64,000 bases of DNA from Halorubrum vacuolatum (GTDB lineage Archaea; Halobacteriota; Halobacteria; Halobacteriales; Haloferacaceae): positions 1 through 64,000 of the forward strand of contig NZ_FZNQ01000010.1 in the NCBI RefSeq assembly GCF_900188065.1, in the 5' to 3' direction. Within the stretch, counting starts at the first letter, position 1, and each line of letters begins with the position of its first letter. Shown piece by piece: positions 3,047 to 22,902 of this stretch. The notes below the pieces were generated by a model, which was not told the origin of the DNA, did no database searches, and was given only the letters and a program-made list of their open reading frames with translations. Made by a program: the position numbers and the translations under genes.

Positions 3047-3120
3047 GGGCTCGTGGTCTAGCTGGTTATGACGCGGCCTTTACAAGGCTGAGGTCGGTGG
3101 TTCGAATCCGCCCGAGCCCA
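3047..3120 (+). tRNA. tRNA-Val (anticodon UAC)
   Basis: Full cloverleaf: acceptor GGGCTCG/CGAGCCC with discriminator A; anticodon stem CGGCC/GGCTG enclosing loop TTTACAA (anticodon TAC); T-arm with TTCGAAT loop; no CCA encoded. Its 3' end, from the T-arm on, is the attachment site of the integrated element. The gene stays intact because the element's left end rebuilds the same 3' sequence. The T-run TCTTTTT just after the gene is element DNA and probably now ends the transcript. Confidence 0.96.
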
Positions 3121-3121
3121 T
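3096..3121 (+). repeat. attL (tRNA-Val 3' end)
   Basis: Left copy of the 26-bp core shared with 22877-22902. It spans the T-arm and 3' acceptor strand of tRNA-Val. Sequence diverges immediately on both sides of the 26 bp. Confidence 0.93.
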
Positions 3122-3266
3122 CTTTTTAGTGGTGGTCTGGAATCGTTGTACAGCGCCGGGGTTAGGCCCTTATTCACCAGTCCGAATCGGGCGAGTCGAA
3201 CTACTGCGTGGTTGCTCCTCCACAGCGTCCTGCGATTCACTAAGATATGTGCGGGCGAGATACTTC

Positions 3267-3315
3267 AAACCGTAGCTCAGTGTGTTGAACTTTCCTGTTG
3301 TCTGAGCTACAGTTT
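3267..3315. promoter_or_regulatory. 14-bp inverted repeat upstream of the first element operon
   Basis: Arms 3267-3280 and 3302-3315 are complementary at 13 of 14 positions, with a perfect GTAGCTCAG/CTGAGCTAC core and 21 bp between them. The right arm runs into TTTAATAA (3313-3320), a plausible TATA box about 30 bp before the ATG at 3352. This looks like an operator, or a pair of half-sites, for the left operon. The rest of 3122-3351 shows no gene. Confidence 0.5.
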
Positions 3316-3351
3316 AATAACCACTCAGAACCAACTATCAGGTGGGTTTAG

Positions 3352-3609
3352 ATGGTCGATGATAACGAGGATTCCGAGAGTGGCAACGATACTCAAAAGC
3401 CGAAGCCGAAGACGGTGAAGCCAAACAGACTGAGAATCCAGGCTTGCGACCTTGAGGTAGAAGCCGAGAGCAACGAGGAGTCCGTTGAAGAGATGATGGA
3501 ATACCTCAGCCCCGAGATGGAGTCCCTGATGAGACATCACTTAGCCGGGGAATACGAGGTTATTGAGGAGGAGGACTTGTTCGCCCAGATTTTCGGGGGA
3601 AACCGGTGA
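3352..3609 (+). CDS. small acidic protein of unknown function
   Basis: 85 aa, strongly acidic, with a lysine/proline-rich patch (residues 16-24) followed by a predicted helical segment rich in Glu (SNEESVEEMMEYLSPEM). No membrane segment. I do not recognise the family. It is first in a compact four-gene operon (3352-4952) with a 4-nt gap to the next gene. The start is supported by the TATA-like sequence at about -35. Confidence 0.65.
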   Translation: MVDDNEDSESGNDTQKPKPKTVKPNRLRIQACDLEVEAESNEESVEEMMEYLSPEMESLMRHHLAGEYEVIEEEDLFAQIFGGNR

Positions 3610-3613
3610 GAGA

Positions 3614-3835
3614 ATGTTTGGATATGACCTTCTCGTCTATCCTGCCGTTGCTATCTGGTTGGCCGTGTTCTACTTTTTTTACTCGCTACTTGGATTCATC
3701 TGGTCAGTCTTCTATTTTCTGCTCGCTTCGTCCGTGATTTACTTGATGTGGACTGGAGCGAGTACGGTATTAATCGGCATCTATCTGGGATTGATGACGC
3801 TGCCAATTTGGTATGCGGGGGTGTTCGGTAGATGA
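3614..3835 (+). CDS. small multi-pass membrane protein
   Basis: 73 aa, almost entirely hydrophobic, with two or three membrane segments (about residues 8-28, 30-45 and 48-68). Function unknown. The start at 3614, 4 nt after the upstream stop, is preferred over an upstream start inside the previous gene. Its stop overlaps the next start as ATGA, so translation of the pair is probably coupled. Confidence 0.7.
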   Translation: MFGYDLLVYPAVAIWLAVFYFFYSLLGFIWSVFYFLLASSVIYLMWTGASTVLIGIYLGLMTLPIWYAGVFGR

Positions 3836-4179
3836 TTCTACGGGGGTCTCAGATTCTTCTGTTGGTACTGCTGGTTCTGGGTTTTGGCTACTTTGTGGTC
3901 GAACTATACGAGACACCAGACTCCGAGTATGTTGAGTCAATCAGTCAAGGAGAAGTAACTGAGCAACTTCACATTCGGTTCGTATCTGACACCGACAAGC
4001 GAACCGAAGTCGGTGGATATGGCGTTGTAACCGAGGACAGGAACCTCTATGAATTCAACTCAATGGACGCTCGTTTGCCCAGGCAATCTATTGATTATCC
4101 GCCCGACGAAGACACAGTGATATTCGTCCTCTGGGATGTCGACGGCGAAGTAATGGAGACACACGAGGTTGACCTGTAA
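3832..4179 (+). CDS. membrane-anchored protein, unknown function
   Basis: 115 aa with an N-terminal hydrophobic anchor or signal (residues 8-24) and a soluble domain ending in DTVIFVLWDVDGEVMETHEV. A similar ending (FEHLIFVVLDDDEVVYTSGAV) occurs in the element's 8726-9316 protein, so the two soluble domains may be related. Overlaps the upstream gene by 4 nt and the next gene follows 2 nt later. Confidence 0.7.
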   Translation: MILRGSQILLLVLLVLGFGYFVVELYETPDSEYVESISQGEVTEQLHIRFVSDTDKRTEVGGYGVVTEDRNLYEFNSMDARLPRQSIDYPPDEDTVIFVLWDVDGEVMETHEVDL

Positions 4180-4181
4180 AA

Positions 4182-4952
4182 ATGAAACGAAGGCAATACC
4201 TACAATCGGCGGCTGGCATCGGTATCGGACTACCCTTCATCGAGACAGTAGCAAGTGAACAACAGACGCTTGAGGACAACTTGGAGCGATTGTTCCCTCA
4301 ACGAATCGGGGATTATGAACGCTTGAGAGTGGACTCTGAGATAATCGTCTATTCAGCGGAGTCTGGCGGTCATATGAAGGTCTACAACCACAGGGAAGGC
4401 CAGCAACATCTGGATGTTGTTGTGGACTCAATCAGGTATCAGGCGTTTTCGTTTGGACAGGCGTCTCGTTTACTCCATGCGTATGTAAGTAATGTTAATT
4501 ATGAATATGAGGATGGAGACTCAATCTATACTGGGGATGACTGGCAAGTCGTGTATCGGTATCATACGGTGGATTATCAGAGTCCAGAGGCGGAACGGGA
4601 GTATGACAAAGAAGACCTTGATGTTCATCCATTGAAACTCGCAGGCAGTCTCGTGGAATCGAGTGTGGATGCGATGTGGGAAATCAGGCAGGAATATCGG
4701 GAGGTATCTACTCCGTTCTACGACGACTGGAATGCGGAGTCAATTCCAGAGGGGACGAGGTATTTCCTGCGACTGGATGAACTCTGCTTTGAGTACCGAT
4801 TATACGATTCTGAGTCGATACTGTATGTCTATACGGTATCGGAGTCAGGAGAAGTTGGAAAATTAGACCGTAACAGAGTAGACTCCCATGAGCAAGCCCG
4901 TCAGTTGGTGCAGCATTACCTACATTATAATCCTCAGTATCGCATAGTCTGA
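4182..4952 (+). CDS. Tat-signal secreted protein, unknown function
   Basis: 256 aa starting MKRRQYLQSAAGIGIGLP, a twin-arginine signal with a hydrophobic h-region, so the mature protein is probably folded before export. The mature part is rich in Tyr, Asp and Glu and has no C-terminal anchor. Family not recognised. Last gene of the 3352-4952 operon. The following 75 bp hold the operator and promoter of the next gene. Confidence 0.7.
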   Translation: MKRRQYLQSAAGIGIGLPFIETVASEQQTLEDNLERLFPQRIGDYERLRVDSEIIVYSAESGGHMKVYNHREGQQHLDVVVDSIRYQAFSFGQASRLLHAYVSNVNYEYEDGDSIYTGDDWQVVYRYHTVDYQSPEAEREYDKEDLDVHPLKLAGSLVESSVDAMWEIRQEYREVSTPFYDDWNAESIPEGTRYFLRLDELCFEYRLYDSESILYVYTVSESGEVGKLDRNRVDSHEQARQLVQHYLHYNPQYRIV

Positions 4953-4974: not shown

Positions 4975-5002
4975 TTTGTACTCACTACAAAAGATTTATA
5001 AG
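4975..5002 (+). promoter_or_regulatory. TTTGTA-N5-TACAAA operator and TATA box
   Basis: A 17-bp palindrome at 4975-4991 is followed directly by the TATA-like ATTTATAAG (4994-5002). The ATG at 5028 lies where transcription should begin, so the mRNA is probably leaderless. The same palindrome-TATA arrangement recurs at 16686-16702 and 21541-21557 on the minus strand, and a fourth palindrome lies at 16726-16742. Confidence 0.75.
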
Positions 5003-5027: not shown

Positions 5028-5384
5028 ATGTCATATCAAAAGCCACGACGAAATTATTTCGTGAAACTGACGCATGGTACAGGACAGGTTGCCGTTCCAA
5101 CGCAACCATCAGAAGAAGAGATAGAGGAGTTCTACATATACGAAGGCTCAGACCTTGAGGGCAATACAGTCCTCTTGTATCACACATACGATTACTCTGA
5201 GGTTGATGATGTAGACGAGGTAGAGTACACCCGCAAATACAACGGCAGACAAACCACAGTCCCAGCTGCAATCCGAGAGGACGACTGGGAGGGCTTTGTC
5301 GTTGAGATTTACGAGAACGCCCACGGCACTATATTTGCGTACTATCCAGAAACAGACGATGAGGAATCTAACCAAGGTGAATAA
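5028..5384 (+). CDS. AbrB-like DNA-binding protein candidate
   Basis: 118 aa. The C-terminal half contains YTRKYNGRQTTVPAAIRE followed by a short hydrophobic/acidic strand region, the layout of SpoVT-AbrB swapped-hairpin domains. The N-terminal half (YFVKLTHGTGQVAVP) looks like a weaker second copy, so one chain could form the usual two-hairpin unit. It has its own operator-bearing promoter, so it may regulate itself and the other TTTGTA-N5-TACAAA promoters. The start at 5028 is set by the promoter spacing. The DNA-binding role is inferred. Confidence 0.55.
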   Translation: MSYQKPRRNYFVKLTHGTGQVAVPTQPSEEEIEEFYIYEGSDLEGNTVLLYHTYDYSEVDDVDEVEYTRKYNGRQTTVPAAIREDDWEGFVVEIYENAHGTIFAYYPETDDEESNQGE

Positions 5385-5490: not shown

Positions 5491-6006
5491 ATGAGTGAAA
5501 CAGAAGTCTACTCCATCTCAGCTCCTCAGGACCTGATGGATAGGGTTGAAACTGTCTCTGGAAATCGAAGTGAAGCAGTTCGGGAAGCCCTCGAAAACTA
5601 CCTCCAAGCCAACTCATCTGGTGAGCAACGCATCGAGCAAATTGAAGAAGAAATCGCTGAGATTGAAGCAGAACAGGAGCAACTTGAGAAGCGGAAACAG
5701 GGACTCCTCGCCGAGCGAGAACAGATTCAGGCAGAGATTGAACGAGAAGAAGAAGAGCAGGAAGCCTACGAGAAGTTAGTCGATGAACTTGCCGAGCTGA
5801 AGGCGAACGGAGGACGAGTTCTTGAATCCAGTAAGTTCAAACGAGCCGTATCACTGTGCGAATGGCAGGGAGAACTGGCTGTTGAAAAAGTACTGGAGGA
5901 AGTCCGAGACCGAGCAGGAGTACAGGACACACAAACAGACACAGAGGTGATTACCGAGACAACAGACGACTACGACTTTGAACTAAACACAGGTGATGAC
6001 AAATGA
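5491..6006 (+). CDS. ribbon-helix-helix protein with long coiled coil
   Basis: 171 aa. Residues 1-40 (EVYSISAPQDLMDRVETV..NRSEAVREALENYL) match the ribbon-helix-helix DNA-binding fold. Residues 45-105 form a Glu/Gln-rich coiled coil, and the tail is acidic. RHH proteins bind palindromes as dimers, and the coiled coil suggests stable dimers or higher oligomers. The stop overlaps the mcm start (ATGA), so it may be an origin-binding or initiator partner of the helicase or the repressor of this promoter. Both roles are inference. Start chosen at the ATG directly behind the ribosome-binding site. Confidence 0.75.
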   Translation: MSETEVYSISAPQDLMDRVETVSGNRSEAVREALENYLQANSSGEQRIEQIEEEIAEIEAEQEQLEKRKQGLLAEREQIQAEIEREEEEQEAYEKLVDELAELKANGGRVLESSKFKRAVSLCEWQGELAVEKVLEEVRDRAGVQDTQTDTEVITETTDDYDFELNTGDDK

Positions 6007-8015
6007 GAACACAAAGACCACAACGAGACCCAAGAACGATACACTATGCAATAGACCTCATCAACGAATACGGAACAGACTTGTTTGGATTTGACGCCGA
6101 ACAGAGAACTCTATCATTGGATATTGAAAAAATACGAGAAGCAGAAGGAAAGGACGACGGGTTGTCAAAGATGGTCGCAGAGGAGCCAGATAAGGCGATG
6201 TATAATATCCAGTGTGCAGTAGAAGAACACCCAGACCTTGATATCGATGATGAGAGGGGAGTTGATATTGTTGCTGTTAAAAACGCCCCAAAGAGGACTG
6301 TTGGAGATGTTAAAGCCGAAGACTTCCAGACTGCCCGAAACCTCACAGTAGACATCACCGAACTCTCAAGCCAATACGCTCAACTAATGCTGGCAGATTT
6401 TCAATGCCTGTATTGTAATCACAAGACTCGCATGGTACAGGACCCCATGACGGACGAGATAGACGAACCACACCACTGTCCTAACGATGACTGCGGGCGT
6501 TCCAATTTCGGTCAAATACCAATTCAACATGCCGACAGTCAGAGTGCTATCGTGCAAGACCTACCAGAAGCAAGTTTAAATCCGCAAGAGATGGAAGCCC
6601 GATTTTTCGGGGAGGATGTCAACCAATTCGATGCGGGCGACCGTGTACATCTCACCGTCATTGTTCGGACCCAATCCGACGACAAGTCTTCGAGGGAATA
6701 TCCAATTCTGGAAGTTCTACACGCAGAGAAGGAGGAAGAGAAAGCAAGTGTTGAACTCGAAGAAGATGAAATCGAGTCGTTTGAAGAAACCGCTGACGAA
6801 GAGGATATGTTGGAGTTACTCCTTGAGTCATACGCTCCACACCTCGAAGGCGAAGAAATCAAAGCCGCACGAGAAGGAATGTTGCTCACCTTGTTCTCTG
6901 GAGACCTCGGAGTGAGTGATGGAGTTCGGGACACAATCCACACCGCTCACATCGGAGACCCTTCAACTGGCAAGTCCGACCTCCTCGAAGAAGCCCGAAA
7001 GGTTGCTCCACACCATGCGTTCGCCTCTGGACTCAACGCTTCAAAGGCGGGCGTCTCTGCTGGTCTGGAGCGACAGAGCAAACTGGAGAGTGAAGATTGG
7101 ACACTCAAAGCAGGTACGATGGTTAGGGCCAACGATGGAGTAGCCCTTATTGACGAGTTGGATAAACTCGGAGACTCAGCCGTTCGTTCGCTCTACGACC
7201 CACTCGCAAGACAGACAGTCAAGATTGACAAGATTATCAGCAAGGAACTGAAGGCAAACCCAGCGACCGCAATCGCAAGCAATCCGAAAAACGAGCGATT
7301 CAACTTGGACAATCCAATTGGAGAACAACTCAACTACCCGCCTGCTCTACTGTCACGGTTCGACCTCATCTTCACCGTCTTAGATTCCAACGAGGCAGAT
7401 GAACTCAAGGCGGATGCGATGACTCAGAAGTTCATGGCGGTCTCCACAGACGGGTCTGGATTTGAGACTCCATTCACGAACGAGGAGATGCGGAAAATCA
7501 TCTACTACGCTCGGAACAACTACCAGCCAACGATAACCTCGGAAGCGGCTGAATACCTCAAGGGCAAGTGGACTGAACTCCGAGACTCCATGGAAGCACA
7601 GGCGGGCGTTTCAATCGACACTCGACAGTATGAGTCTCTGCTGACCATCGCACTCACATACGCACGCATCCGACTCTCTGAAGAAGCCGAAATTCAAGAC
7701 GCCGAACGAGCATGGAATATTACACGGAAGTCCTTCAGCGACATCAATCGATTCGGAGACAACGATACCTTCGATGTTACAATGCTCTACGCTGGAGAGT
7801 CCACATCACAGGCTGAACGGCGTGAGGATGTCCTCAGTAAGATTCGAGAACTCGATGAGGGCGAGAACACATATGCAAATGAAGAACTCGTTGCTGATGC
7901 CCTGAGCGAGAAATACGAAGCAGATGAGGTCAAGGCAGAGATTGAACTACTCAAAGAGAAGGGCAAGGTCTTTCCGATGAGTGGTGAACTCAAGGTCTCA
8001 GACCAATCCCAATAA
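6003..8015 (+). CDS. mcm: MCM replicative helicase (element-encoded)
   Basis: 670 aa. The N-terminal domain has a zinc site (C135, C138, C159, C164) and an OB region; an acidic linker occupies about residues 245-275. The AAA+ core has Walker A GDPSTGKS (318-325), Walker B ALIDELDK (381-388) and arginine finger SRFDLIF (R452), with a C-terminal winged-helix region. All catalytic motifs are intact, so it should unwind DNA for element replication. Mobile-element MCMs are known in haloarchaea (for example in BJ1-type proviruses). It overlaps the RHH gene by 4 nt and is followed at once by AT-rich repeat A, a plausible origin. Confidence 0.93.
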   Translation: MRTQRPQRDPRTIHYAIDLINEYGTDLFGFDAEQRTLSLDIEKIREAEGKDDGLSKMVAEEPDKAMYNIQCAVEEHPDLDIDDERGVDIVAVKNAPKRTVGDVKAEDFQTARNLTVDITELSSQYAQLMLADFQCLYCNHKTRMVQDPMTDEIDEPHHCPNDDCGRSNFGQIPIQHADSQSAIVQDLPEASLNPQEMEARFFGEDVNQFDAGDRVHLTVIVRTQSDDKSSREYPILEVLHAEKEEEKASVELEEDEIESFEETADEEDMLELLLESYAPHLEGEEIKAAREGMLLTLFSGDLGVSDGVRDTIHTAHIGDPSTGKSDLLEEARKVAPHHAFASGLNASKAGVSAGLERQSKLESEDWTLKAGTMVRANDGVALIDELDKLGDSAVRSLYDPLARQTVKIDKIISKELKANPATAIASNPKNERFNLDNPIGEQLNYPPALLSRFDLIFTVLDSNEADELKADAMTQKFMAVSTDGSGFETPFTNEEMRKIIYYARNNYQPTITSEAAEYLKGKWTELRDSMEAQAGVSIDTRQYESLLTIALTYARIRLSEEAEIQDAERAWNITRKSFSDINRFGDNDTFDVTMLYAGESTSQAERREDVLSKIRELDEGENTYANEELVADALSEKYEADEVKAEIELLKEKGKVFPMSGELKVSDQSQ

Positions 8016-8030
8016 CAGGGTACCATCTTG

Positions 8031-8141
8031 TTATTAGTAGTATTATTAATTTATTAAAAAAGTTATTAATTAATAAGATTATTAGTAAGTTAGTAGTATA
8101 CTATTAGAAGTAGTAGTATAGGGTTAGAATAGGTTGAAGTC
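8031..8141 (+). repeat. AT-rich repeat A (origin candidate)
   Basis: Positions 8031-8098 are identical to 20966-21033 (copy C, direct), and 8042-8141 are the perfect reverse complement of 16915-17014 (copy B). The sequence is nearly all A/T with repeated TTATTA and TAGTAG words. It lies immediately after mcm. Nothing in 8016-8318 looks protein coding. Confidence 0.85.
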
Positions 8142-8183
8142 TCCTTTTCCCTGTTGTCAACACACTACTTTTCAGGACTTGGA

Positions 8184-8236
8184 ATAGCGTCTTAGTCTAT
8201 GCGGGTTGTTAACAAGGCGATATAATCAGGCGCTAT
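8184..8236. repeat. segment inverted relative to copy C
   Basis: Arms ATAGCG (8184-8189) and CGCTAT (8231-8236) enclose 41 bp. The same arms at 21120-21125 and 21168-21173 enclose a homologous segment in the opposite orientation (first 15 bp identical after reverse complementing). Confidence 0.7.
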
Positions 8237-8318: not shown

Positions 8319-8606
8319 ATGTTGGATAGAATTAAACAACGATTTGGGATGAATAGTACTTCTCAGGCAGGCGGGCGTCCGTCTCTACTTCGATTAGCCG
8401 TAATTGCGATTATTTTATGGATGGTCTTGGGGGCGGTGGTTTCGATTCTGATTGGAACGATTGAGGCTATCTCGGGAGTCCTTGCGTTTGGATTGCTGAT
8501 TGGGGTGGGAATCGTGGCGTTTTATGTTGGGTATCAGGCGTGTGGCTGGGTAGTTAGTGTAACGCTGGGCAGTGGACAGTACGACTTCTCGTTAAGACGA
8601 CGGTGA
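8319..8606 (+). CDS. small membrane protein (matrix-protein candidate)
   Basis: 95 aa with two strong membrane segments (about residues 22-46 and 52-76) and a short charged tail. It is first in an operon that ends in a P-loop ATPase. In pleolipoviruses a small multi-span membrane protein (VP3) opens the corresponding module, so an envelope matrix role is possible, but sequence similarity was not tested. The start at 8319 fits the promoter, and an earlier in-frame codon would lie before the transcription start. Confidence 0.65.
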   Translation: MLDRIKQRFGMNSTSQAGGRPSLLRLAVIAIILWMVLGAVVSILIGTIEAISGVLAFGLLIGVGIVAFYVGYQACGWVVSVTLGSGQYDFSLRRR

Positions 8607-8612
8607 TTCAGT

Positions 8613-8729
8613 ATGACGGGTATTAGACAAAAGTTAGAGAAGTATCGTGCGAGCCTACGAGATAGTAGTCCAAATTGGCTGGATGACTTGGTTAGAGGTG
8701 ATTCTCAGGGCGAGGGTGATTCGAAATGA
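8613..8729 (+). CDS. 38-aa microprotein
   Basis: Short open frame beginning MTGIRQKLEKYRASLRDSS and ending in a Gly/Asp/Ser tail; its N-terminal half is basic and helical. It starts 6 nt after the upstream stop and its stop overlaps the next start (ATGA), exactly like its neighbours, which is the main evidence that it is a gene. Function unknown. Confidence 0.55.
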   Translation: MTGIRQKLEKYRASLRDSSPNWLDDLVRGDSQGEGDSK

Positions 8730-9316
8730 AACACCGATTGCGAGTTTTACTGGCTCTTGTAGTTGTGGTTATTTTTGGGTCGGTATTGATGCTCGGAGTC
8801 TCTGGGTCTGTTGATGCCTCTGATTCAGATTTTAATGACCAAGATGCTGTAATCGAATTTGAAATCTTGGAACTGGAGCCTGAGTCTATCGAACCAACAG
8901 ATGTTACGGGAGACCGCTATGTGGAAGTTTATGCTGTTTCTTTAAATGATGACGGGTTTGTTACTGAGGATGAGTATTTGTATACTTCCCGAGGAGACGT
9001 CTCTGTACTGTATTCGACTTGGGAACAGGTCAAGCAGTCCGCTGACTTTGAGTTTGAGCATCTGATTTTTGTTGTACTGGATGATGACGAGGTGGTCTAC
9101 ACATCGGGAGCGGTGAGTTATGAGTTACCGATAGACCAGACGCTTGAGTATAGCGTTGATTCTGAGGACGAGTACATCATCGTGGATGCAGAGCAGGAGG
9201 AGGATGATGGTGAAGGCTGGTTTAGGTTTGGTATTTTGGTCTTAATCGCTATCCCGTGGATTGCTGTCTTGCTTGCTGGGTACGCTGTGTTTAGACGGCG
9301 GGGTGGTTTCAGATGA
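8726..9316 (+). CDS. secreted protein with C-terminal membrane anchor
   Basis: 196 aa with an N-terminal signal (residues 5-28), an acidic extracellular domain and a C-terminal membrane segment (about 167-188) followed by RRRGGFR on the cytoplasmic side. This topology matches envelope proteins of membrane-bounded haloarchaeal viruses. The domain segment LIFVVLDDDEVVYTSG resembles the end of the 3832-4179 protein. Overlaps both neighbours by 4 nt. Confidence 0.7.
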   Translation: MKHRLRVLLALVVVVIFGSVLMLGVSGSVDASDSDFNDQDAVIEFEILELEPESIEPTDVTGDRYVEVYAVSLNDDGFVTEDEYLYTSRGDVSVLYSTWEQVKQSADFEFEHLIFVVLDDDEVVYTSGAVSYELPIDQTLEYSVDSEDEYIIVDAEQEEDDGEGWFRFGILVLIAIPWIAVLLAGYAVFRRRGGFR

Positions 9317-10821
9317 ACCGAGCCTTCTCTCTACTGGTCGTTTCACTCCTGTTGGTCTCGACTATTGGGATGCCTGTGTTTGCGTCTGGAGTTGCCTCTG
9401 CTGAGGAATCAGAGATAGAAGAACCAGTTGACGAAGACGAGATGGTCATAGATGAATCTGACCTGATTGAAGCCGACCGAGTATTCCTGAACGGAGTTCG
9501 TCTGAATGAACTTGACCACGAACCAGAACTGGCTAAGTTTGAACTCCAGAATCCGACCGATAGCGTTGCACGAGTTGTGGTGAATCCTGGTGGAACAGAC
9601 GAGCAACTGTTTGTACGACTCCGACCGGGAGAAACCGAGGAAATCCATGTTGAGGTAACTCCATCTGGAATCAATCAGGAGTGGAGTCTTACCGTTTCTT
9701 CAGAGATTGGCACGGACGAGTTTGACGAGGTGGTTGAAGCTGGTGGTACGACCAGCCAAGCCCAGTATACTATCTCCGAGGAGTGGCGGGTGATTAATCA
9801 TGCTCCTGATGTTGGGCATCCGATTGTCATCGTCCTTGTTGGTGGTGCCAATATATTCCTGCTGCTTTTTGCGGTGATTGGATGGGACAGTCGTGTTAGT
9901 CGGATGGCCATTCCAGTCAACGCTCCATCCCGTGGTATCTTTGACGAAAGGAAGGAATTCTCGCCAGAACAGGGTCGGTTAGAAAGAGCGTTGGAGTTTG
10001 CTTCTGGTTGGATTAAAGGATGGGGATTGATAGTTGTGAGTCTCTCCCTGTTTGTACTTGGAGGTCTCCATTTTGTCGATGCGAGTCCTATCGAGTCTAC
10101 TCTCATCGCTGGGTCGACGGTGTACTTGATGTACGGTCAATTAATCTTCGCCGCTCCAGCTGGTGCGTTAGGATTCTGGATTGCTCGAAAACGGTTTGTA
10201 GAGATTCACGATATCAATCCAGCCAACGGGGATAATTGGCTCTGGTTGCTCTCCCCACAACGGTTTGCTCAGATGAAGGTGATGAGAGAGGTAGAAGACC
10301 CAGACACGGGCGAACAAATAGTGTTTGAAGTGGACAAGGATTGGCTCTACTCGATTAACGCTGAGAGTCCACGAGAGGCATATGAAGTTGAGAAGTACGA
10401 CCCTGTGAATAATGTTGCTTGGGTCTCTTGGTCTGGTGAGGTCGCCCAAATCAAACCACGAGACCTCCGCAAGCACCAGAGACTGGTTCCGTGGATTCAG
10501 GATACAGCCTCCTATGTTTTCGACCAACTAAATATACTGAGAGACTTTTATGTCGAGGATGTCCGACAGGAGGCTGAGTACCTAAACGCCCGACAAACAG
10601 CGGTCATGGAAGAAGAGGTAATGGGTGGCATGGGGTCTACCCGAGAACGGTTGAAAAGCAGAATGCGAGACCGTGGAAATGGAGACCTCCTCGAAGGGAA
10701 CGAAGCATCGTTAATGGATGAAGCGTCCGAGTCGGTAGACAACTACGACCCACGAGAGAATCAGAAACAACAGGCGAACAAGCGGATGGGTAAGCGTGTA
10801 GATTCTGGTGATAACCAATGA
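9313..10821 (+). CDS. large membrane protein of the envelope/ATPase module
   Basis: 502 aa with a signal peptide (about 1-26), an extracellular beta-rich domain (35-165), three membrane segments (about 174-196, 236-256 and 267-293) and a large cytoplasmic part with two SH3-like strand-rich stretches (EVEKYDPVNNVAWVSW) and a basic tail. The downstream ATPase overlaps by 4 nt and probably works with this cytoplasmic domain. Position and topology recall the ORF6/ORF7-type membrane proteins beside VP8 in pleolipoviruses. No enzymatic motif seen. Confidence 0.7.
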   Translation: MNRAFSLLVVSLLLVSTIGMPVFASGVASAEESEIEEPVDEDEMVIDESDLIEADRVFLNGVRLNELDHEPELAKFELQNPTDSVARVVVNPGGTDEQLFVRLRPGETEEIHVEVTPSGINQEWSLTVSSEIGTDEFDEVVEAGGTTSQAQYTISEEWRVINHAPDVGHPIVIVLVGGANIFLLLFAVIGWDSRVSRMAIPVNAPSRGIFDERKEFSPEQGRLERALEFASGWIKGWGLIVVSLSLFVLGGLHFVDASPIESTLIAGSTVYLMYGQLIFAAPAGALGFWIARKRFVEIHDINPANGDNWLWLLSPQRFAQMKVMREVEDPDTGEQIVFEVDKDWLYSINAESPREAYEVEKYDPVNNVAWVSWSGEVAQIKPRDLRKHQRLVPWIQDTASYVFDQLNILRDFYVEDVRQEAEYLNARQTAVMEEEVMGGMGSTRERLKSRMRDRGNGDLLEGNEASLMDEASESVDNYDPRENQKQQANKRMGKRVDSGDNQ

Positions 10822-13060: not shown

Positions 13061-13723
13061 GTGTCTGACGAAGACGAATTTAAATTGACTGAAGATGAGC
13101 GGGAACGCTTAGTTGCTGAAGATGTCGAGGAGTTCCCGTTTGACACACCAAAGTACACCACTTACCTCCTTAACCCAGCAATCAATCTCTCTCAATCCAA
13201 TCGACCTCATGTGGTTGGGCAGATGAGCGATATCGTGGAAGAGTTCCGGCAAGAACACCCAGAAGGGACATTTGACGATTGGGTGAATTACTACAAGGAT
13301 GAGTACGACGGCGATGAGCGGCTTGAGGAAGCAACCAAGATGGCGTATCCTATGGTGGAGAGGATGCGGGAGGCGTTCGAGCAGATTGATGAAGAGATGA
13401 CTCGGCAATATCTCCGTGATTTAGTCCTATTCAAGACATACGAAGGCTTTGACATCCAAGAAGCAATCCTGAAGAAACTGGGAGAGATGTACAGTTTGGA
13501 AGTCCACAGAGCTGATGCTCAAGATGAAAGCAAAGGCATTGATGGATACCTCGGAGACCAACCTGTCCAAGTAAAACCAGTTACCTACAAGGACAATCTT
13601 CCAGAGAGCATCGAGGTCCCAATTATATTCTACGACGAAAACAAGTCCAATAAGACGATGAAAGTCGATATCTCCGAATTGAAAGAAGAGATGGACCTCG
13701 GAGGTCGGGACGGAGACGACTGA
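13061..13723 (+). CDS. type II restriction endonuclease, MjaI-like
   Basis: 220 aa from a GTG start. The C-terminal part has YEGFDIQEAILKKL, then SKGIDGYLGDQPVQVKPVTYK, a PD-(D/E)XK-type site with D and QVK, the pattern of the MjaI family (CTAG cutters). The GTG is preferred over a TTG at 12989 because it sits about 25 bp after a TATA-like GCTTTATCAT, implying a leaderless message. The downstream methyltransferase completes a restriction-modification pair. CTAG specificity is inferred from the family. Confidence 0.7.
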   Translation: MSDEDEFKLTEDERERLVAEDVEEFPFDTPKYTTYLLNPAINLSQSNRPHVVGQMSDIVEEFRQEHPEGTFDDWVNYYKDEYDGDERLEEATKMAYPMVERMREAFEQIDEEMTRQYLRDLVLFKTYEGFDIQEAILKKLGEMYSLEVHRADAQDESKGIDGYLGDQPVQVKPVTYKDNLPESIEVPIIFYDENKSNKTMKVDISELKEEMDLGGRDGDD

Positions 13724-15002: not shown

Positions 15003-15491
15003 TCACACGAAGACAAAATAGAGTGCGAACAGAATCGCTCCGATACCAAGCAACCAGAGAACCCAATTCCCCAAGAACGAGTTCGCTGAAATCCTCCCCG
15101 AATGTCTCCGCTGAGACAACGGCTGATATGGTCTGATACCCGCTGGAGTGATAGCGTCAGCGAATAGATGAGCGACGATACTGAACACTCCAACGAATCC
15201 GAGGAACAACACCACGATTTGAACATCAACTCCAATCCAAATCAGAATCGGAGCGAGTATCATTCCAACGAGGGCCATCCCGAGACCGACGAGAGAAGCA
15301 AACCAAATGGTGTGAGTAAATCCTCGATGCGGGAGGAGTGGAATGCCCTGGTCTTTGTCCGGTAACATCACGAGTCCCATGCCAAGGACGAGTCCGAGTA
15401 GAGCAAACACATACAACTCCATCCAGAGCAACACCACTAAGACTGGAGCGTACAGAATCAATAGCATCCCCTTGTGTCCTCGGCGGTACAT
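15003..15491 (-). CDS. DUF457/YdjM-type membrane-bound metal-dependent hydrolase
   Basis: 162 aa with four or five membrane segments and the family motifs MYRRGHKGM, LPHRGFTHT and HLFADAITPAGIRPYQPLS, whose His and Asp residues are proposed metal ligands. DUF457/YdjM proteins are widespread in haloarchaea and often found in proviruses and plasmids; substrate unknown. Its start overlaps the stop of the upstream wHTH gene by 1 nt (TGATG), so the two form a unit. Confidence 0.85.
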   Translation of the reverse strand: MYRRGHKGMLLILYAPVLVVLLWMELYVFALLGLVLGMGLVMLPDKDQGIPLLPHRGFTHTIWFASLVGLGMALVGMILAPILIWIGVDVQIVVLFLGFVGVFSIVAHLFADAITPAGIRPYQPLSQRRHSGRISANSFLGNWVLWLLGIGAILFALYFVFV

Positions 15492-16217: not shown

Positions 16218-16256
16218 CAGAGGAATCGAACCCCTGAGAATCACCAGACACGCCTA
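16218..16256 (-). other. tRNA T-arm-like hairpin between genes (copy 2)
   Basis: The same 19 nt as copy 1 (16256-16238, including the TAG stop of the upstream gene) is followed by a 6-bp stem (one G-U pair) with loop TTCGATT (16236-16218) and GGCGTCC, like the 3' end of a tRNA. GGATGT in the coding end just upstream could pair with GCGTCC. No full cloverleaf can be drawn. Confidence 0.6.
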
Positions 16257-16652
16257 CATCCTCGCTAAACCGATACGGCCAACCATCTCTTCCCGCAGGT
16301 AATCTTCGATTTCCTCGTATTCTATCTCCTCAGTATCTACTCCAGTAACCTGTCCGTCGTCATCTCGGTGAACCCGATTCAGAATCCAGTACTGTCGCTT
16401 CTCGTTATTCCAGCTGTCATCCCGCACTTCATACACATATCCTTCTTCCAGTTCAGACGCTGGGACATACAGTTTACCAGTCTTTCCAGAATGGGATGTG
16501 TCTCCTTTCTCAGAAATAAATTCTCGGTCGAAATTGTACTTCTCGTGGAGGTCTGTGATTCGGGCGACATAGTTTGTCTTTCCGAAATTAACATGAACTC
16601 CATCGTTGTCTTCTGTGCGAATCCAGTCGGACAGTTTTGTATTACCTGTCAT
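16254..16652 (-). CDS. 132-aa protein of unknown function
   Basis: Soluble mixed alpha/beta protein beginning MTGNTKLSDWIRTEDNDGVHVN; rich in Asp, Glu, Tyr and Trp; possible beta domain in the middle (YVPASELEEGYVYEVRDDSW). Family not recognised. Transcribed from a promoter with two TTTGTA-N5-TACAAA palindromes spaced 40 bp apart, so it is probably among the most tightly controlled genes of the element. TATA box to ATG spacing of about 25 bp implies a leaderless mRNA. Confidence 0.65.
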   Translation of the reverse strand: MTGNTKLSDWIRTEDNDGVHVNFGKTNYVARITDLHEKYNFDREFISEKGDTSHSGKTGKLYVPASELEEGYVYEVRDDSWNNEKRQYWILNRVHRDDDGQVTGVDTEEIEYEEIEDYLREEMVGRIGLARM

Positions 16653-16674: not shown

Positions 16675-16742
16675 GTTATATATCTTTTGTACTTACTACA
16701 AAATCATGGAATTAGGGTATTATATTTTGTACTAATTACAAA
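16675..16742 (-). promoter_or_regulatory. double TTTGTA-N5-TACAAA operator and TATA box
   Basis: Palindromes at 16686-16702 and 16726-16742 (start-to-start 40 bp, near four helical turns), then GATATATAAC on the minus strand as TATA box (16675-16684). The arrangement suggests cooperative binding of a dimeric repressor. Confidence 0.75.
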
Positions 16743-16914
16743 AAGAGAATCAACACAGACGGGCATAGATGCAGTAAATCACCCGGAATTTGGCACGGAA
16801 ACTCTCTCATGCCCAGGGACCGGACCAGAGAAGAATTTCGACCTCCAGAAACACCCAAAACACGCCCACAATCACAAGGTCGGAAAACAGGGATTTTCAG
16901 GAACAGGAGGATGG

Positions 16915-17014
16915 GACTTCAACCTATTCTAACCCTATACTACTACTTCTAATAGTATACTACTAACTTACTAATAATCTTATTAATTAATAACTTTTTT
17001 AATAAATTAATAAT
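16915..17014 (-). repeat. AT-rich repeat B (inverted copy)
   Basis: Perfect 100-bp reverse complement of 8042-8141. It lies between the divergent genes 16652 (-) and 17109 (+). The side facing lower coordinates (to about 16880) keeps traces of the extended similarity seen between A and C (CCTGTTCCTGAAA). The stretch 16743-16914 shows no convincing gene. Confidence 0.85.
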
Positions 17015-17065
17015 CTAACTGTAATAACACGGGTATGCTGCTCCTGTATTTTCTTGATATATATG

Positions 17066-17108: not shown

Positions 17109-18413
17109 ATGGTTTTGAAATTAACAATCAGAGCCCTGATGATGCTTATTTTAGTCGTCGGCATTGCGGCTGGACTGATGTATCTCGGGCTCGGAGAAGT
17201 GGCAGCACAAGATAACGAATACGAACTGTCCGAAGAGGATGATTACACAATTGTGTATGAGTCAGATGAGGAATTGAGAGTGTGGAATTACCAAGATGGA
17301 TACGAGTGGATAACCACATATCCGAACGAAGAACCAACTAATAATGGGTTCTATTTTGATGGTAATTATATTTATGCTTGGACTTGGGGACTCAGCGACG
17401 ACCCTGTGTATATGGATGTATACTCTACAGACGGGACGTTAGTCGATAGTTCTGAATTGGATGAAAATAAGTTCCAAAATCAGAGAGACCATCAAATTGA
17501 AGATTTGACCGTCAGTAATGGTCAGGTCTACTCTGTGGATACAAGCGGTGGTATAACGACATGGGAAGCAGGGAGTGCGATTACATATGATAACTCCGAT
17601 GTTGTCGTGGATTTTGATGACGACAGCAGTGCCAGTCAACTTGATTCTGCTGACGGAACAGTATATTACAGCGAGTACAACCCAAGTGTTGACGAACCAG
17701 CTGAAATCGGATATTTAAACGAAGATGGTGAGCAAGTACCAATCACCGACGAAGGTTTAGGATATATTCATGCCGACGATACTGGAGTATACTACTTCGA
17801 TAATCGGGATACAGATGAAATTGAACTGAGTAAATTTGGCGAGTGGACTGTAACTCTGACTGACGGTTCTGAAGATGAAATCTCTCTCGAACACATTGAT
17901 ACAGTTGACAACCACATTATAGTTGATGATGAGGAAATTTTCGGGTCAGCGTATGCGATACCATTTGACGACATTGAAAATGGAGATGAAGTTGAATTGA
18001 ATGATAACGATAACCGTTCTTTTTCAGTTTCTTACAATGATAGGGCAGACACAAGTCAAAAATTTATTTACTGGAATCGAACTGTCAAGGACATATACGG
18101 TAACGATTTGCACACCAGAGATACGACGGGATATGAGCAGACATATTTGATTAATGAGGATATTGATTTCAGCTCGGACGAGACCGAGGATGAGTCGGAC
18201 GAGGACGATTCAAATAATTTCAATGAACTCGATGACGATGATACAGAATCAACAGATGACGGAATCATAATTGGAGATAGCGGTGGAGACGAGACCTCCA
18301 GCGATGGAGTTAATGATGTAATACTACTCCTCGGTGGGACTATGGCCGTCGCAGGTGGACTTGGACTGTGGTACTTACTCGGTGGCGGGGAAGTAACTCG
18401 GCGTCGAGTCTGA
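17109..18413 (+). CDS. secreted beta-propeller-like surface protein with C-terminal anchor
   Basis: 434 aa with a signal peptide (about 1-34), then repeated blade-like segments (GNYIYAWTWG, GQVYSVDTSGGITTW, DDTGVYYFDN) suggesting a beta-propeller. An acidic Asp/Glu/Ser stalk (about 355-400) follows, then a C-terminal membrane helix and a basic RRRV tail. This is the architecture of spike or S-layer-like receptor-binding proteins on haloarchaeal membrane viruses and vesicles. The propeller call is from repeat pattern only. A wHTH gene follows 53 bp later. Confidence 0.7.
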   Translation: MVLKLTIRALMMLILVVGIAAGLMYLGLGEVAAQDNEYELSEEDDYTIVYESDEELRVWNYQDGYEWITTYPNEEPTNNGFYFDGNYIYAWTWGLSDDPVYMDVYSTDGTLVDSSELDENKFQNQRDHQIEDLTVSNGQVYSVDTSGGITTWEAGSAITYDNSDVVVDFDDDSSASQLDSADGTVYYSEYNPSVDEPAEIGYLNEDGEQVPITDEGLGYIHADDTGVYYFDNRDTDEIELSKFGEWTVTLTDGSEDEISLEHIDTVDNHIIVDDEEIFGSAYAIPFDDIENGDEVELNDNDNRSFSVSYNDRADTSQKFIYWNRTVKDIYGNDLHTRDTTGYEQTYLINEDIDFSSDETEDESDEDDSNNFNELDDDDTESTDDGIIIGDSGGDETSSDGVNDVILLLGGTMAVAGGLGLWYLLGGGEVTRRRV

Positions 18414-18466: not shown

Positions 18467-18712
18467 ATGGCACAGTCAGTTGAACGAGCGTTAATCGTGA
18501 TGGAGATTATGGATAAGTACCAGCGGGTGGGCGAGCCTGTTTCTGTTTCCGAGGTCGAGGATAAGGTTGACTTTTCTGAGGATACGGTGAGGCGGAGACT
18601 CGATGACTTAGTAAAGCGGGGATGGGCGTATAAGAAAGGAGAGTTCTATTTCCCGATGTTCCAACTCGGAAAGTCTGGTTTTTATAAGCCCGACAAGGCT
18701 GATTTTTCCTAG
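18467..18712 (+). CDS. winged-helix DNA-binding protein
   Basis: 81 aa with a winged helix (PVSVSEVEDKVDFSEDTVRRRLDDLVKRGWAYKKGEFYF). Probable local regulator of the two surface-protein genes on either side. A TATA-like CTTAAAC lies about 27 bp upstream of the ATG, so it can be transcribed separately and leaderless. Confidence 0.75.
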   Translation: MAQSVERALIVMEIMDKYQRVGEPVSVSEVEDKVDFSEDTVRRRLDDLVKRGWAYKKGEFYFPMFQLGKSGFYKPDKADFS

Positions 18713-19382: not shown

Positions 19383-19604
19383 ATGGGACATTTTGATGGG
19401 CTGACAGTAGGACTCGGGCTCGGAATGGCTGTAACAACGCTGTACACCTTGGTGTATAGTCTCAGTCTCCTCGTGTCAGGGTCGATAGTCGGCGTGATGT
19501 TTGGGCTACTCGGCTTGCTGACGGTCGGCACCATCGGTTGGATTGGATTCCAGTTGTCCCCGTATCGAAATTCAAACATCACAAACCTTACACTAAAACC
19601 ATGA
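19383..19604 (+). CDS. small two-span membrane protein
   Basis: 73 aa with two membrane segments (about 8-29 and 33-56). It is paired with the following surface protein through an ATGA overlap. A small membrane protein ahead of a larger anchored protein repeats the arrangement seen at 8319-9316. Function unknown. Confidence 0.65.
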   Translation: MGHFDGLTVGLGLGMAVTTLYTLVYSLSLLVSGSIVGVMFGLLGLLTVGTIGWIGFQLSPYRNSNITNLTLKP

Positions 19605-20890
19605 ATGTAATTGGTAAAATCCGAGGAAACTCGGGAACGAACGGACTCGGACCTAAACTCGTCGCTCTTGTAGTTGCGAGTATGGTCTTGATGTCTATGG
19701 TAGCGATGCCCGTTGCCGCCGCATCATTTGTTGCAGTTACAGATGTCGACGGCGAAGACGGCGAACAAACCTGGGAAATCGAACTCGATGGTGAAACCCA
19801 ATCGGGAGAGGAAATCCGAATCGTAACCTTTGACGATTCTGGAGACGAAATCGATTACTCCAATGCTGAAGTCTCTACTAATCTGAATGACGATAACCTC
19901 ATTCACTTTAGTGATGGAGATTCTGACCTATTCGTTGAATATCAAGTCCAAGAAGAGGACATCGGAGATACGCTTGAAGTAACAGTCGAAGGTATCGAGG
20001 TGTCGGCTGATGGAGAAGAGAATTATAGTGTCCAGTTAATCGACTCTGACGAGGAGGAAGAACTATCCGAAAGTACTTTCGACTACTTCGTGTCTGAAGA
20101 CTCTGATAACGGAGACGAGGAGGCTGATGAGTACACTGTAACCTTCGAAGTGGATGATGAAGATGGTAACGCAATCGAAGGTGCTGATGTCTCTGTCGCT
20201 GGAGTTCAAGAAACCACAGACGCTGATGGTGTTGTAACATACGACCTCGAAGACGGGTCATACCATTACAGCGTATCCGCTGATGGGTATGTTGATATTG
20301 TGTCAGATGATGACGATTCAGTTGAACCCTTTGAGATTGCTGGAGAGGATAAAACAGTCTCTGTGACACTCGAACAGCAGACGACAGTATACGAGTTTGA
20401 GGTTGTAGATGGCGAGGATTCCGTTGAGGAGTTTGACTTCGCTATGTACGATGCTGAGGACTCTCTTGTCGGAGGTGAGATGGTCGAAGTAGATGACGGT
20501 AGTACGATTACTGTCGATGGGGTCACTGTCAATGACGAGTACACTGTTGAGGTTACAGTAGATGAAGAAGACGAGGATGGTGAAACTCAAGAAGTAACCT
20601 ACTCGGAGTCTTTCTCTGCTGAAGAAGTCGCTGACGGTGAAGAGTATGTATCCATGACGCTCGACCTTGGTGAGTTAGAACAGGTGGAAGATGGCAGCGT
20701 TATTCCTATTGGAGACGCTGGTGAGACTGCTTCAGGTTGGTTCGACTCCTTAGTTGAAGAACTTGAAGACCTTGGACTCGGCGCTAATCTCTCAGTTATT
20801 CTCGGTGGAGTTATCGCTATCCTTGTTGCCATTGGTGGTGCTATCTTTGTTGTTAGTGGTACTCGTGGCGTCTTCAATACAGTACGATAA
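19601..20890 (+). CDS. secreted surface protein with C-terminal anchor
   Basis: 429 aa with a signal peptide (about 15-42), acidic Ig-like beta domains including a carboxypeptidase-regulatory/PEGA-like unit (VDDEDGNAIEGADVSVAG..TTDADGVVTYDLEDGSY), an amphipathic segment (ASGWFDSLVEELEDLG), a C-terminal membrane helix (about 400-423) and a short basic end. A second spike candidate beside the propeller protein at 17109. The start at 19601 overlaps the upstream stop; an in-frame start at 19538 would lie inside the upstream gene and before the signal peptide. Confidence 0.75.
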   Translation: MNVIGKIRGNSGTNGLGPKLVALVVASMVLMSMVAMPVAAASFVAVTDVDGEDGEQTWEIELDGETQSGEEIRIVTFDDSGDEIDYSNAEVSTNLNDDNLIHFSDGDSDLFVEYQVQEEDIGDTLEVTVEGIEVSADGEENYSVQLIDSDEEEELSESTFDYFVSEDSDNGDEEADEYTVTFEVDDEDGNAIEGADVSVAGVQETTDADGVVTYDLEDGSYHYSVSADGYVDIVSDDDDSVEPFEIAGEDKTVSVTLEQQTTVYEFEVVDGEDSVEEFDFAMYDAEDSLVGGEMVEVDDGSTITVDGVTVNDEYTVEVTVDEEDEDGETQEVTYSESFSAEEVADGEEYVSMTLDLGELEQVEDGSVIPIGDAGETASGWFDSLVEELEDLGLGANLSVILGGVIAILVAIGGAIFVVSGTRGVFNTVR

Positions 20891-20965: not shown

Positions 20966-21033
20966 TTATTAGTAGTATTATTAATTTATTAAAAAAGTTA
21001 TTAATTAATAAGATTATTAGTAAGTTAGTAGTA
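20966..21033 (+). repeat. AT-rich repeat C (direct copy)
   Basis: Identical over 68 bp to 8031-8098. Weaker similarity continues to about 21206 (CCTGTT, CAGG, GGGTGTTTGAGTGTATAAC). It lies between convergent genes ending at 20890 and 21231; no gene is seen in this stretch. Confidence 0.85.
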
Positions 21034-21119
21034 GTATAGTAATAGTAGTAGTATTAGTTTGAAATGAGTTGGAAGTTCCATCTTCCCTGTTCCTGAAACT
21101 CGACTTTACAGGCTCTGAC

Positions 21120-21173
21120 ATAGCGTTCGGGTTATAGAGCCTTGGTAACAATCCGCATAGACTAAGACGCTAT
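21120..21173. repeat. inverted counterpart of segment 8184-8236
   Basis: ATAGCG and CGCTAT arms enclose 42 bp that are homologous to the 41 bp of copy A when reverse complemented, while the surrounding repeat is in direct orientation. Confidence 0.7.
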
Positions 21174-21230
21174 GCGAACTCCGGTCTATGGGTGTTTGAG
21201 TGTATAACAGCGGGTGAAAAGAGAGAGTGT

Positions 21231-21503
21231 TTAGAATGCGTATGCCTCTTCGATTTCGTTGAAGGCTTCGGCGTGTTCTCGTTCTTCTGGTGTTTGGACG
21301 ATTTGGATGAGTTCGTGGAGTGCTTCGAGTCCATCTGATTCGATGCTTGCTCCGTATCGTGCTTTTTGTTCTTCGTTGAGGTTTTCGATTTCGTCTTGGA
21401 CTGATTCTACGGTTTCGATTAGGTCATTGATTTCGTCCATTTCGTCGGCTGTGAATGTTTGTTCTTCAATCCGTGCTTCGATTTCTTTCATACTCAAAGT
21501 CAT
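21231..21503 (-). CDS. small helical acidic protein
   Basis: 90 aa, nearly all helical and acidic (EIEARIEEQTFTADEMDEINDLIETVESVQDEIENL), coiled-coil-like, with no membrane segment. Family not recognised. The promoter has a TTTGTA-N5-TACAAA operator and a TATA box 28-35 bp before the ATG at 21503, which supports that start over a second ATG 12 bp downstream. Confidence 0.65.
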   Translation of the reverse strand: MTLSMKEIEARIEEQTFTADEMDEINDLIETVESVQDEIENLNEEQKARYGASIESDGLEALHELIQIVQTPEEREHAEAFNEIEEAYAF

Positions 21504-21530
21504 CTGTATACTATCCTACAATACCCACCC

Positions 21531-21557
21531 TTATATATCTTTTGTATCTACTACAAA
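21531..21557 (-). promoter_or_regulatory. TTTGTA-N5-TACAAA operator and TATA box
   Basis: Palindrome at 21541-21557; TATA-like ATATATAA at 21531-21538. On the minus strand the context (palindrome, AAGATATATAAGGGTGGGTATTG) is nearly the same as at 4975-5013, so more than the palindrome is shared. Confidence 0.75.
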
Positions 21558-21647
21558 ATTTTAGGGTTTTAAGTCAGGAACCAATAAATTTGGTTACTCA
21601 AAGTCGTCTAAGTTAGTTCTCGTTCTATGTGATTCTACAAGAACTGT

Positions 21648-21785
21648 TTACCAGCGGGGTTCCTGTTCTCGCTCTTCCATCCCGTATTCTTCAGGGGGTT
21701 CAGGTTCTGGTGCGTTGTCCTGAAGATAGTCGTAGTATTCTGCCTTTTCGACTTCCGCTTTCGTCGTATTGCCTTTCTTAGACAT
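21648..21785 (-). CDS. 45-aa microprotein
   Basis: Begins MSKKGNTTKAEVEKAEYYDY and continues with a Pro/Glu-rich tail ending EPRW. A TATA-like TTTAATATAATA about 25 bp upstream of the ATG supports expression. It lies between the integrase stop and the 21231-21503 gene; function unknown. Confidence 0.55.
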   Translation of the reverse strand: MSKKGNTTKAEVEKAEYYDYLQDNAPEPEPPEEYGMEEREQEPRW

Positions 21786-21857
21786 ACACTAATGTTAGTA
21801 TGATATTATATTAAAACCACCGATATTAACTCAAAAACTATATGTTCGTTATATTGG

Positions 21858-22844
21858 TTAGATGTTGTCTAAAAACGCCCTACGCTGGTTCATTTTCTCT
21901 AACTTGCTTCGGCTGTCGTAGTGCTTATCGAGTACATCTTCTGAAACATTCGCACGGTCGGAGACAACCTTCTCTGGTAATCCTTCCCTGAGGAAGTGGG
22001 TTATTGAACCTCGTCGGATGGCGTGTGGTGATACTGTGTCATCGCAACAGTAGGCTTGCTTGCTGTTGGTGTTACAGTCGCACTCGGTTGATTCTCCCCT
22101 GAACGAGGGACAGGTGAGTTGGTATGACCATCTCCGCATGGTGTTTCTATGTACACGCCCGTGTGGACTGGAAATGAAGGGGTTGCGTCCGTGTTGGTCT
22201 TCTACTTCGACTCGGTTGTGTTTGAGATAGTCGTCCAGTATAGTACAGGTTTCCTCTGACAGGGCAACAGGTCGTTCTCCCTGTACTCCATTCTTCAACT
22301 TCGTACCGTCCCGTTCTCGGTAGTAGATGTATTCCTCCTCTGGGTGGTAATCCTCTACATCCAGGGCCCGGAGTGAACTGATGCGGGCACTTGTCCTCCA
22401 CGCTAACAAAAACCAGATGTGTCGGACAGAGGCATAGTGGTATCTGTCCAGTGTCTCAAGGATTTCCCGAGCCTCGTCTGCGGGCACGATTCTGTCATTC
22501 CGTTCCTCACTGGGACTCATCGATACCTTTGGAACTGCCTCGTGAAGGTCGGGCTCAACCGCTCCAATTCTCTCCAGAAATTTGAGGAACACTCTGAGGG
22601 TGTCCATCTGACCTTTCATGCTCGCTTTAGTGAGGTCTCCATCGTGTCGACGCCAGTTGGCATAGTCATCTATCTCCGGGCGGGTGATTGTAGAGACATC
22701 TGTGATTCCGTTGAGTTCACACCATCGGACGAAGTGTTTGAGTCGGTAGTGGTGACTTTTGAGGGTTGATTCTCTGAGGTCGGTCTTTCGGCTTTCAAGA
22801 TATGTGGTCTTGGCTTGGTCTGGGTTTAATCCGGGGTTTGGCAT
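21858..22844 (-). CDS. int: tyrosine recombinase (integrase)
   Basis: 328 aa. N-terminal SAM-like core-binding domain (about 1-110). Catalytic domain with R in TSARISSLRALD, H-x-x-R in SPHAIRRGS and nucleophile Y in DKHYDSRS. A Cys-rich insertion (CPSF..ECDCN..YCCDD) is typical of haloarchaeal integrases. It catalyses recombination between attP and the tRNA-Val 3' end. It reads away from attR, which lies about 30 bp upstream of its start. All catalytic residues appear present, so excision may still be possible. Confidence 0.93.
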   Translation of the reverse strand: MPNPGLNPDQAKTTYLESRKTDLRESTLKSHHYRLKHFVRWCELNGITDVSTITRPEIDDYANWRRHDGDLTKASMKGQMDTLRVFLKFLERIGAVEPDLHEAVPKVSMSPSEERNDRIVPADEAREILETLDRYHYASVRHIWFLLAWRTSARISSLRALDVEDYHPEEEYIYYRERDGTKLKNGVQGERPVALSEETCTILDDYLKHNRVEVEDQHGRNPFISSPHGRVHRNTMRRWSYQLTCPSFRGESTECDCNTNSKQAYCCDDTVSPHAIRRGSITHFLREGLPEKVVSDRANVSEDVLDKHYDSRSKLEKMNQRRAFLDNI

Positions 22845-22876
22845 AGTGTATCATACTCCCGAATCGCAAGACCAGA

Positions 22877-22902
22877 GGTGGTTCGAATCCGCCCGAGCCC
22901 AT
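22877..22902 (+). repeat. attR (tRNA-Val 3' end copy)
   Basis: Right copy of the 26-bp core identical to 3096-3121. The upstream part of the tRNA is absent, so this is not a functional tRNA. Confidence 0.93.

Follow-up and report, generated by a model that had tools for sequence, protein, structure and literature searches.

The window analysed here, 64,000 nucleotides of contig NZ_FZNQ01000010.1 of the haloarchaeon Halorubrum vacuolatum (assembly GCF_900188065.1), contains an integrated element of 19,781 bp (one att copy counted), low in guanine-plus-cytosine (GC) content and bounded by exact 26-nt direct repeats at a tRNA-Val gene (Table 1). The GC content is about 0.67 outside the repeats, falls to 0.40-0.53 between them, and is back to 0.67 beyond. 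In three genomes of the same genus (G108, G171, G009) the site is empty: the tRNA-Val left flank joins the right flank directly, the two sharing the 26 bp, and thus the insertion is a precise one of 19,781 bp. It lies exactly at the 3′ end of tRNA-Val, with the gene of an SNJ2-like tyrosine integrase (g21) beside the att repeat. Its sequence shares 38.6% identity with the integrase of SNJ2, a temperate pleolipovirus. All the listed genes of the element are open and intact.

An earlier note on this DNA had proposed a 19.8-kb integrated element with a tRNA-Val att duplication, and the exact repeats, the GC drop, and the empty sites bear that out. The MCM, the TATA-binding protein (TBP), the restriction-modification pair, and the integrase that it named all have Pfam support (E-values of 3e-43 for the MCM, 2.5e-34 for the TBP, 3.5e-45 for the endonuclease, and 2.1e-37 for the methylase). 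The overlapping membrane and secreted protein genes at 8319-12422, ending in a P-loop ATPase, and the anchored surface proteins at 17109-18413 and 19601-20890 are as it described them. It had seen no capsid, portal, terminase, or rolling-circle Rep, and we find none of these, nor a Rep-Arvir or PolB, among 20 proteins scanned against Pfam (the 90-aa open reading frame at 21231 left out) and 19 scanned against PHROGs. The local comparison for RCRE, RepB, and PolB used eight reference viruses.

The central block of the element has the order ribbon-helix-helix (RHH) gene, MCM, small transmembrane (TM) protein, secreted protein, ORF6-7, ATPase. The element is more plainly viral than the earlier note could see. 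The ATPase, g11, scores 1.7e-63 against a local profile of 51 pleolipovirus-type ATPases, 1.4e-47 against PHROG 1979, and 8e-24 against His2, and it matches NTPases of the three recognised pleolipovirus genera. In the phage collection it finds pleolipoviruses only, among the matches listed (best 20 of 21), and in the plasmid collection it has no relative. A search of 391 genomes of the class gives an ATPase match at 1e-10 in 130 of them, with close ones only in G303, G244, and G161. Together with these three, g11 forms a clade with support 100/100, and its C-terminal Cys/His motif is invariant throughout the four members.

The membrane protein g10, encoded just before the ATPase, has no tblastn match in the phage or plasmid collections. 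A four-member g10 profile finds full-length relatives only in G161, G244, and G303, and more distantly in G241; the C half of this profile retrieves ORF7 genes adjoining pleolipovirus ATPases. Using hhalign, the five-member g10 family aligns to ORF6 with its N half (P 91.8) and to ORF7 with its C half (P 97.6), that is, in successive halves. By hmmsearch the ORF6 match is weak, and is seen only in the relatives. From these alignments, the best reading of g10 is that it joins pleolipovirus ORF6 and ORF7 in one protein. The two genes ahead of it take their assignments from position: g08, at the place of VP3, has no sequence match to VP3, and g09, at the place of the spike, has no profile match to a spike. 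Taken as protein similarities, the comparisons show a relationship of the element to pleolipoviruses.

Four relatives in other genera (G161, G244, G303, G241c3) share the g10 fusion, the ATPase, and a YdjM gene, and three of the four (not G303) have the operon of RHH coiled-coil protein and MCM. Counting the element in the window, five elements of five genera keep the g10 fusion and the ATPase, and four of the five also keep a g19-type surface protein.

The element MCM, g07, is separate from the host MCM, which is split by inserts, probably inteins. The gene that overlaps it, g06, matches RHH_1 weakly, while its homologues in G161 and G244 match above the cut-off. G161, G244, G241c3, and G241c2 have RHH coiled-coil and MCM genes inside their elements or close by; in G241c3 the MCM is about 15 kb from the ATPase, both inside one low-GC stretch. 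G052 has an MCM near its ATPase, and in G303 there is no MCM in the stretch read. An MCM is present in 6 of nearly 50 neighbourhoods read, a number that is a lower bound because the neighbourhoods were of limited length. We built a tree of 22 MCM sequences, six from pleolipovirus-like elements and 16 outside rows from hosts, plasmids, and tailed viruses. The six element MCMs fall on one side of a 97/97 branch, apart from all the others, and do so in 98% of bootstrap trees. The MCM does not stand alone: it has counterparts on five other pleolipovirus-like elements, and all six group together.

These observations bear on whether the element could be a recent chimera, an unrelated MCM plasmid that acquired a pleolipovirus gene block in this strain alone. 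Palindromic repeats between the blocks could mediate such shuffling, and G303 has the block with no detected MCM. But blocks paired with an MCM are found in several genera, and the MCMs of the six elements are one group, so the association looks old, and we regard a recent chimera as highly improbable.

The repeats in question are three AT-rich stretches, A, B, and C, all with the perfect palindrome TTATTAATTAATAA inside a 34-bp core; the rest of the 3.48-Mb assembly has no further copy of this core, even when 3 mismatches are allowed. In relatives, other palindromes are repeated between genes at similar positions: G161 and G244 each have three copies of TTAGCAGCTGCTAA and G241c3 has five of AATAGCTAATTAGCTATT, but G303 and G241c2 have no repeated palindrome of this kind. 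In the four MCM carriers (the window, G161, G244, G241c3), perfect palindromes recur at module borders and are largely particular to each element. We infer that the AT-rich palindromic repeats are origins or RHH sites; alternatively, they may be recombination sites for module shuffling. A second motif, the operator-like dyad TTTGTA-N5-TACAAA, has four copies in the whole assembly, all of them inside the element (0.01 expected in the window).

The g19 homologues of G161, G244, and G241c3 sit in the structural block just upstream of g10, with a small two-TM gene in between in G161 and G244. In the window, g19 lies away from g10, and the place before g10 is taken by g09. The other anchored protein, g17, has no Pfam family, and homology to the large surface proteins of G161 and G244 was looked for and not found. 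Scans of viral contigs and of genome contigs yielded no relatives for an alignment, and the single-sequence AlphaFold2 models are poor (mean pLDDT 48 for g19 and 37 for g17), and Foldseek matches to the poor g19 model are below significance, the best being pilin Ig-like domains.

As an example with a recognisable spike, G241c2 (L084) presents a contiguous series RHH-MCM-VP3-(522 aa secreted protein)-spike-ORF6-ORF7-ATPase, in the order of the block in the window. The spike is a clear VP4 (profile 1.2e-110). G241c2 is apparently a pleolipovirus-like provirus that has a classical spike and an MCM together.

How does the element compare with described systems? The Pleolipoviridae include Alpha-, Beta-, and Gammapleolipovirus, and the proposed Delta- and Epsilonpleolipovirus; their replication types include no MCM lineage, and MCM is named only for other archaeal dsDNA viruses (PMC10599561). 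With this family the element shares the VP8-type ATPase that ends the block, an ORF7-like protein before the ATPase, an ORF6-like protein, a small TM protein and a secreted protein ahead of them, the module order, an SNJ2-like integrase, integration at a tRNA, and a haloarchaeal host. It differs in that ORF6 and ORF7 are fused, VP3 and the VP4 spike are unrecognisable, and an MCM replaces the rolling-circle Rep (RCRE), Rep-Arvir, or protein-primed PolB. We do not claim formal membership in the Pleolipoviridae, since VP4, VP3, and the known replication genes were all looked for and not found. SNJ2, a temperate betapleolipovirus, has in common with the element the integrase, an ATPase homologue, and the provirus lifestyle, but it replicates by Rep-Arvir (RepSNJ2; PMC13107129) and has VP3- and spike-type proteins, whereas the element has an MCM and neither protein in recognisable form. 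Thalassapleoviridae/AvPV1 (PMC10919331) is likewise a pleolipovirus-like provirus, of 17.9 kb and with a tRNA att, but with a VP4-like fusogen, and MCM is unmentioned in that paper. Haloarchaeal plasmids and tailed viruses with an MCM (BJ1, HJTV-4, Natronosalvus plasmids) use it as a replication gene, and in a Natronosalvus amylolyticus plasmid a coiled-coil gene lies directly upstream of the MCM, but their MCMs lie on the other side of the 97/97 branch.

The apHPV/pR1SE plasmids deserve a separate comparison, since the element might be one of this type, spreading in self-encoded plasmid vesicles. MCM is found on 20 of 41 apHPV vesicle plasmids, where it is thought to be host-derived, and these plasmids insert into replicons of the host and code for an ATPase as well as membrane proteins (PMC10818511). 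On the other hand, their core ORF7, an S8 serine peptidase (PMC10818511), is absent from the Pfam-scanned proteins of the element, this being the only core gene compared, and the element ATPase groups with pleolipovirus NTPases, neither it nor g10 having a relative in the plasmid collection. We find an apHPV identity very improbable. The earlier note had held that the element fits neither pleolipoviruses nor pR1SE; its second half stands, with the S8 peptidase absent, and its first half has to give way to the ties through ATPase, ORF6, ORF7, and module order. For the structural proteins compared with pleolipovirus profiles, the ATPase and the g10 family matched, and nothing matched VP3 or VP4. 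The claim of an undescribed MCM replicon, integrated and equipped with an envelope module of viral or vesicle type, survives, in that the element matches no genus described in the literature examined. The literature searched yielded no account of a pleolipovirus-like provirus with an MCM, which is not proof of absence, as most subscription papers lie outside it.

At the left end, no homologue was found for g02, and g04 has similar-looking genes in G161 and G241c3 with weak phmmer values (0.003-0.04). The TBP, g12, is about 40% identical to TBPs of the tailed haloviruses HRTV-9 and HJTV-2, a likeness which suggests that virus-borne TBPs are a shared tool. Close relatives of the g13/g14 pair (51% and 64%) occur at L088 1897-3675, near a pleolipovirus-like element of G217, and the pair may therefore move together with elements of this sort. 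The tetranucleotide CTAG is strongly depleted both within the element (3 vs. 34 expected) and in the chromosome around it (3 vs. 17 expected); we rejected an effect of the element's MjaI-type enzyme, since the flanks are depleted too. Just beyond the right att repeat, positions 22903-23260 hold an array of tRNA 3′-end-like pieces (GGTGGTTCGAATCCGCTCAGAGCCCA and variants) spaced by a recurring TTTCTGGGACGAACGAAGTGAGTCACAGAACTGTCCGCGAGGGCG unit, and most genomes of the genus have similar pieces dispersed over several sites.

Table 1. Genes and features of the integrated element and its borders, in window coordinates.
Feature	Coordinates	Strand	Evidence
tRNA-Val(tac), integration target; 3′ end = attL	3047..3120	+	ARAGORN; empty site in other genomes
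att repeat copy 1, 26 nt, exact	3096..3121	+	repeat search
g01, 85 aa acidic protein, kept in relatives	3352..3609	+	phmmer 1.2e-14 (G241c3), 5.8e-12 (G161)
g02, 73 aa multi-TM protein	3614..3835	+	sequence
g03, 115 aa, N-terminal hydrophobic segment	3832..4179	+	weak match in G303 (1.4e-4)
g04, 256 aa, Tat-like signal (MKRRQYLQS)	4182..4952	+	sequence
operator-like dyad TTTGTA-N5-TACAAA upstream of g05	4975..4991	.	dyad search
g05, 118 aa, downstream of operator-like dyad	5028..5384	+	sequence
g06, RHH plus coiled-coil protein, overlaps MCM gene	5491..6006	+	RHH_1
g07, MCM replicative helicase (P-loop, lid, OB domains)	6003..8015	+	PF00493 3e-43; PHROG 3e-96; tree
AT-rich repeat A, palindrome TTATTAATTAATAA at 8063-8076, just 3′ of MCM	8031..8225	+	candidate origin or RHH site
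g08, 95 aa two-TM protein at VP3 position	8319..8606	+	position only
g09, 196 aa, signal peptide and C-terminal TM, at spike position	8726..9316	+	position and topology only
g10, 502 aa membrane protein, putative ORF6-ORF7 fusion (N half ORF6-like, C half ORF7-like)	9313..10821	+	hhalign on family
g11, pleolipovirus-type P-loop NTPase (VP8-type ATPase)	10818..12422	+	profiles, homology, tree
g12, TBP	12459..12992	+	Pfam 2.5e-34
g13, MjaI-type restriction endonuclease	12989..13723	+	Pfam 3.5e-45; PADLOC
g14, type II DNA methyltransferase (N6_N4 methylase)	13768..14886	+	Pfam 2.1e-37; PADLOC
g15, YdjM-type membrane protein, kept in all four relatives	15003..15491	-	Pfam; homology search
g16, 132 aa, downstream of two operator-like dyads	16254..16652	-	PHROGs scan; dyad search
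two operator-like dyads upstream of g16 (16686-16702, 16726-16742)	16686..16742	.	dyad search
AT-rich repeat B, inverted vs. A	16875..17026	-	repeat search
g17, 434 aa secreted acidic protein with C-terminal anchor	17109..18413	+	sequence
g18, winged-helix regulator	18467..18712	+	Pfam
g19, surface protein, Ig-like (CarboxypepD_reg) repeat and C-terminal TM	19601..20890	+	Pfam; homology search
AT-rich repeat C	20966..21182	+	repeat search
g20, 90 aa acidic protein, downstream of operator-like dyad	21231..21503	-	sequence; dyad search
operator-like dyad upstream of g20	21541..21557	.	dyad search
g21, tyrosine integrase	21858..22844	-	Pfam; PHROGs
att repeat copy 2, 26 nt, exact; repeats tRNA-Val 3′ end	22877..22902	+	repeat search; empty-site comparison

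Putting the evidence together, we think that the element is probably a provirus from an apparently undescribed lineage related to the pleolipoviruses, with replication by way of its MCM and release in membrane vesicles. The integrase would excise a 19.8-kb circle. The RHH coiled-coil protein would bind the dispersed palindromic AT-rich repeats and recruit the element MCM, and host polymerases would then replicate the circle without an element Orc1/Cdc6. The envelope proteins may drive non-lytic budding of DNA-containing membrane vesicles, the ATPase helping in DNA loading or assembly, and g19, g17, and perhaps g09 could supply attachment and fusion where no VP4 is recognisable. Expression is probably timed by the element TBP, the winged-helix protein, and the set of operators, and the restriction-modification pair may stabilise or protect the element.

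Several results weigh against this reading. Profiles recognise neither VP4 nor VP3 in the window, nor do they in G161, G244, G303, or G241c3. A resemblance of the g19 C-terminus to the VP4 C-terminus (P 63.5) was dropped, as it fell to P 31 and 23 after adding family members. The sequence of g10 alone scores just 4.6e-4 against the ORF7 profile, the stronger values coming from the family alignment, so that the fusion is a reading of the family. In the MCM tree the branches are long and the sampling is modest (the 16 outside rows). Finally, scans of viral contigs found no relative.

The undetectable VP4 and VP3, in the window and in the four relatives, would also be expected of a defective or domesticated pleolipovirus derivative, one that has lost its VP4 fusogen and persists as an MCM-replicating integrative plasmid with no infectious particle; the restriction-modification pair and the MCM are plasmid-like as well. 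Yet all the listed genes are open and intact, and the retention of the g10 fusion and ATPase across five genera, with the g19-type protein in four of the five elements, argues for a function under selection. We consider a defective derivative unlikely, though clearly less so than a plasmid of the apHPV type or a recent chimera.

Beyond the provirus reading, we put forward a broader proposal as a tentative one, about which we remain rather doubtful. The element may stand for a so far unrecognised lineage of archaeal mobile elements with an envelope, one that kept the pleolipovirus budding and packaging core (fused ORF6-7 and ATPase), replaced the VP4 fusogen by surface proteins unrelated to it, and adopted a dedicated RHH-MCM replicon with dispersed palindromic repeats as Orc-independent origins. 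Such a lineage would span virus and vesicle-borne plasmid.

Pleolipovirus genera differ in how they replicate, and to their replication types we can add the MCM as one linked to pleolipovirus-like blocks, in at least 6 elements. The spike has been called a signature of the pleolipovirus group (PMC10919331); the element shows that the packaging core can exist without a recognisable version of it. The finding bears on two questions: which proteins are essential to vesicle-like particles, and how MCM replicons without Orc1/Cdc6 start their replication.

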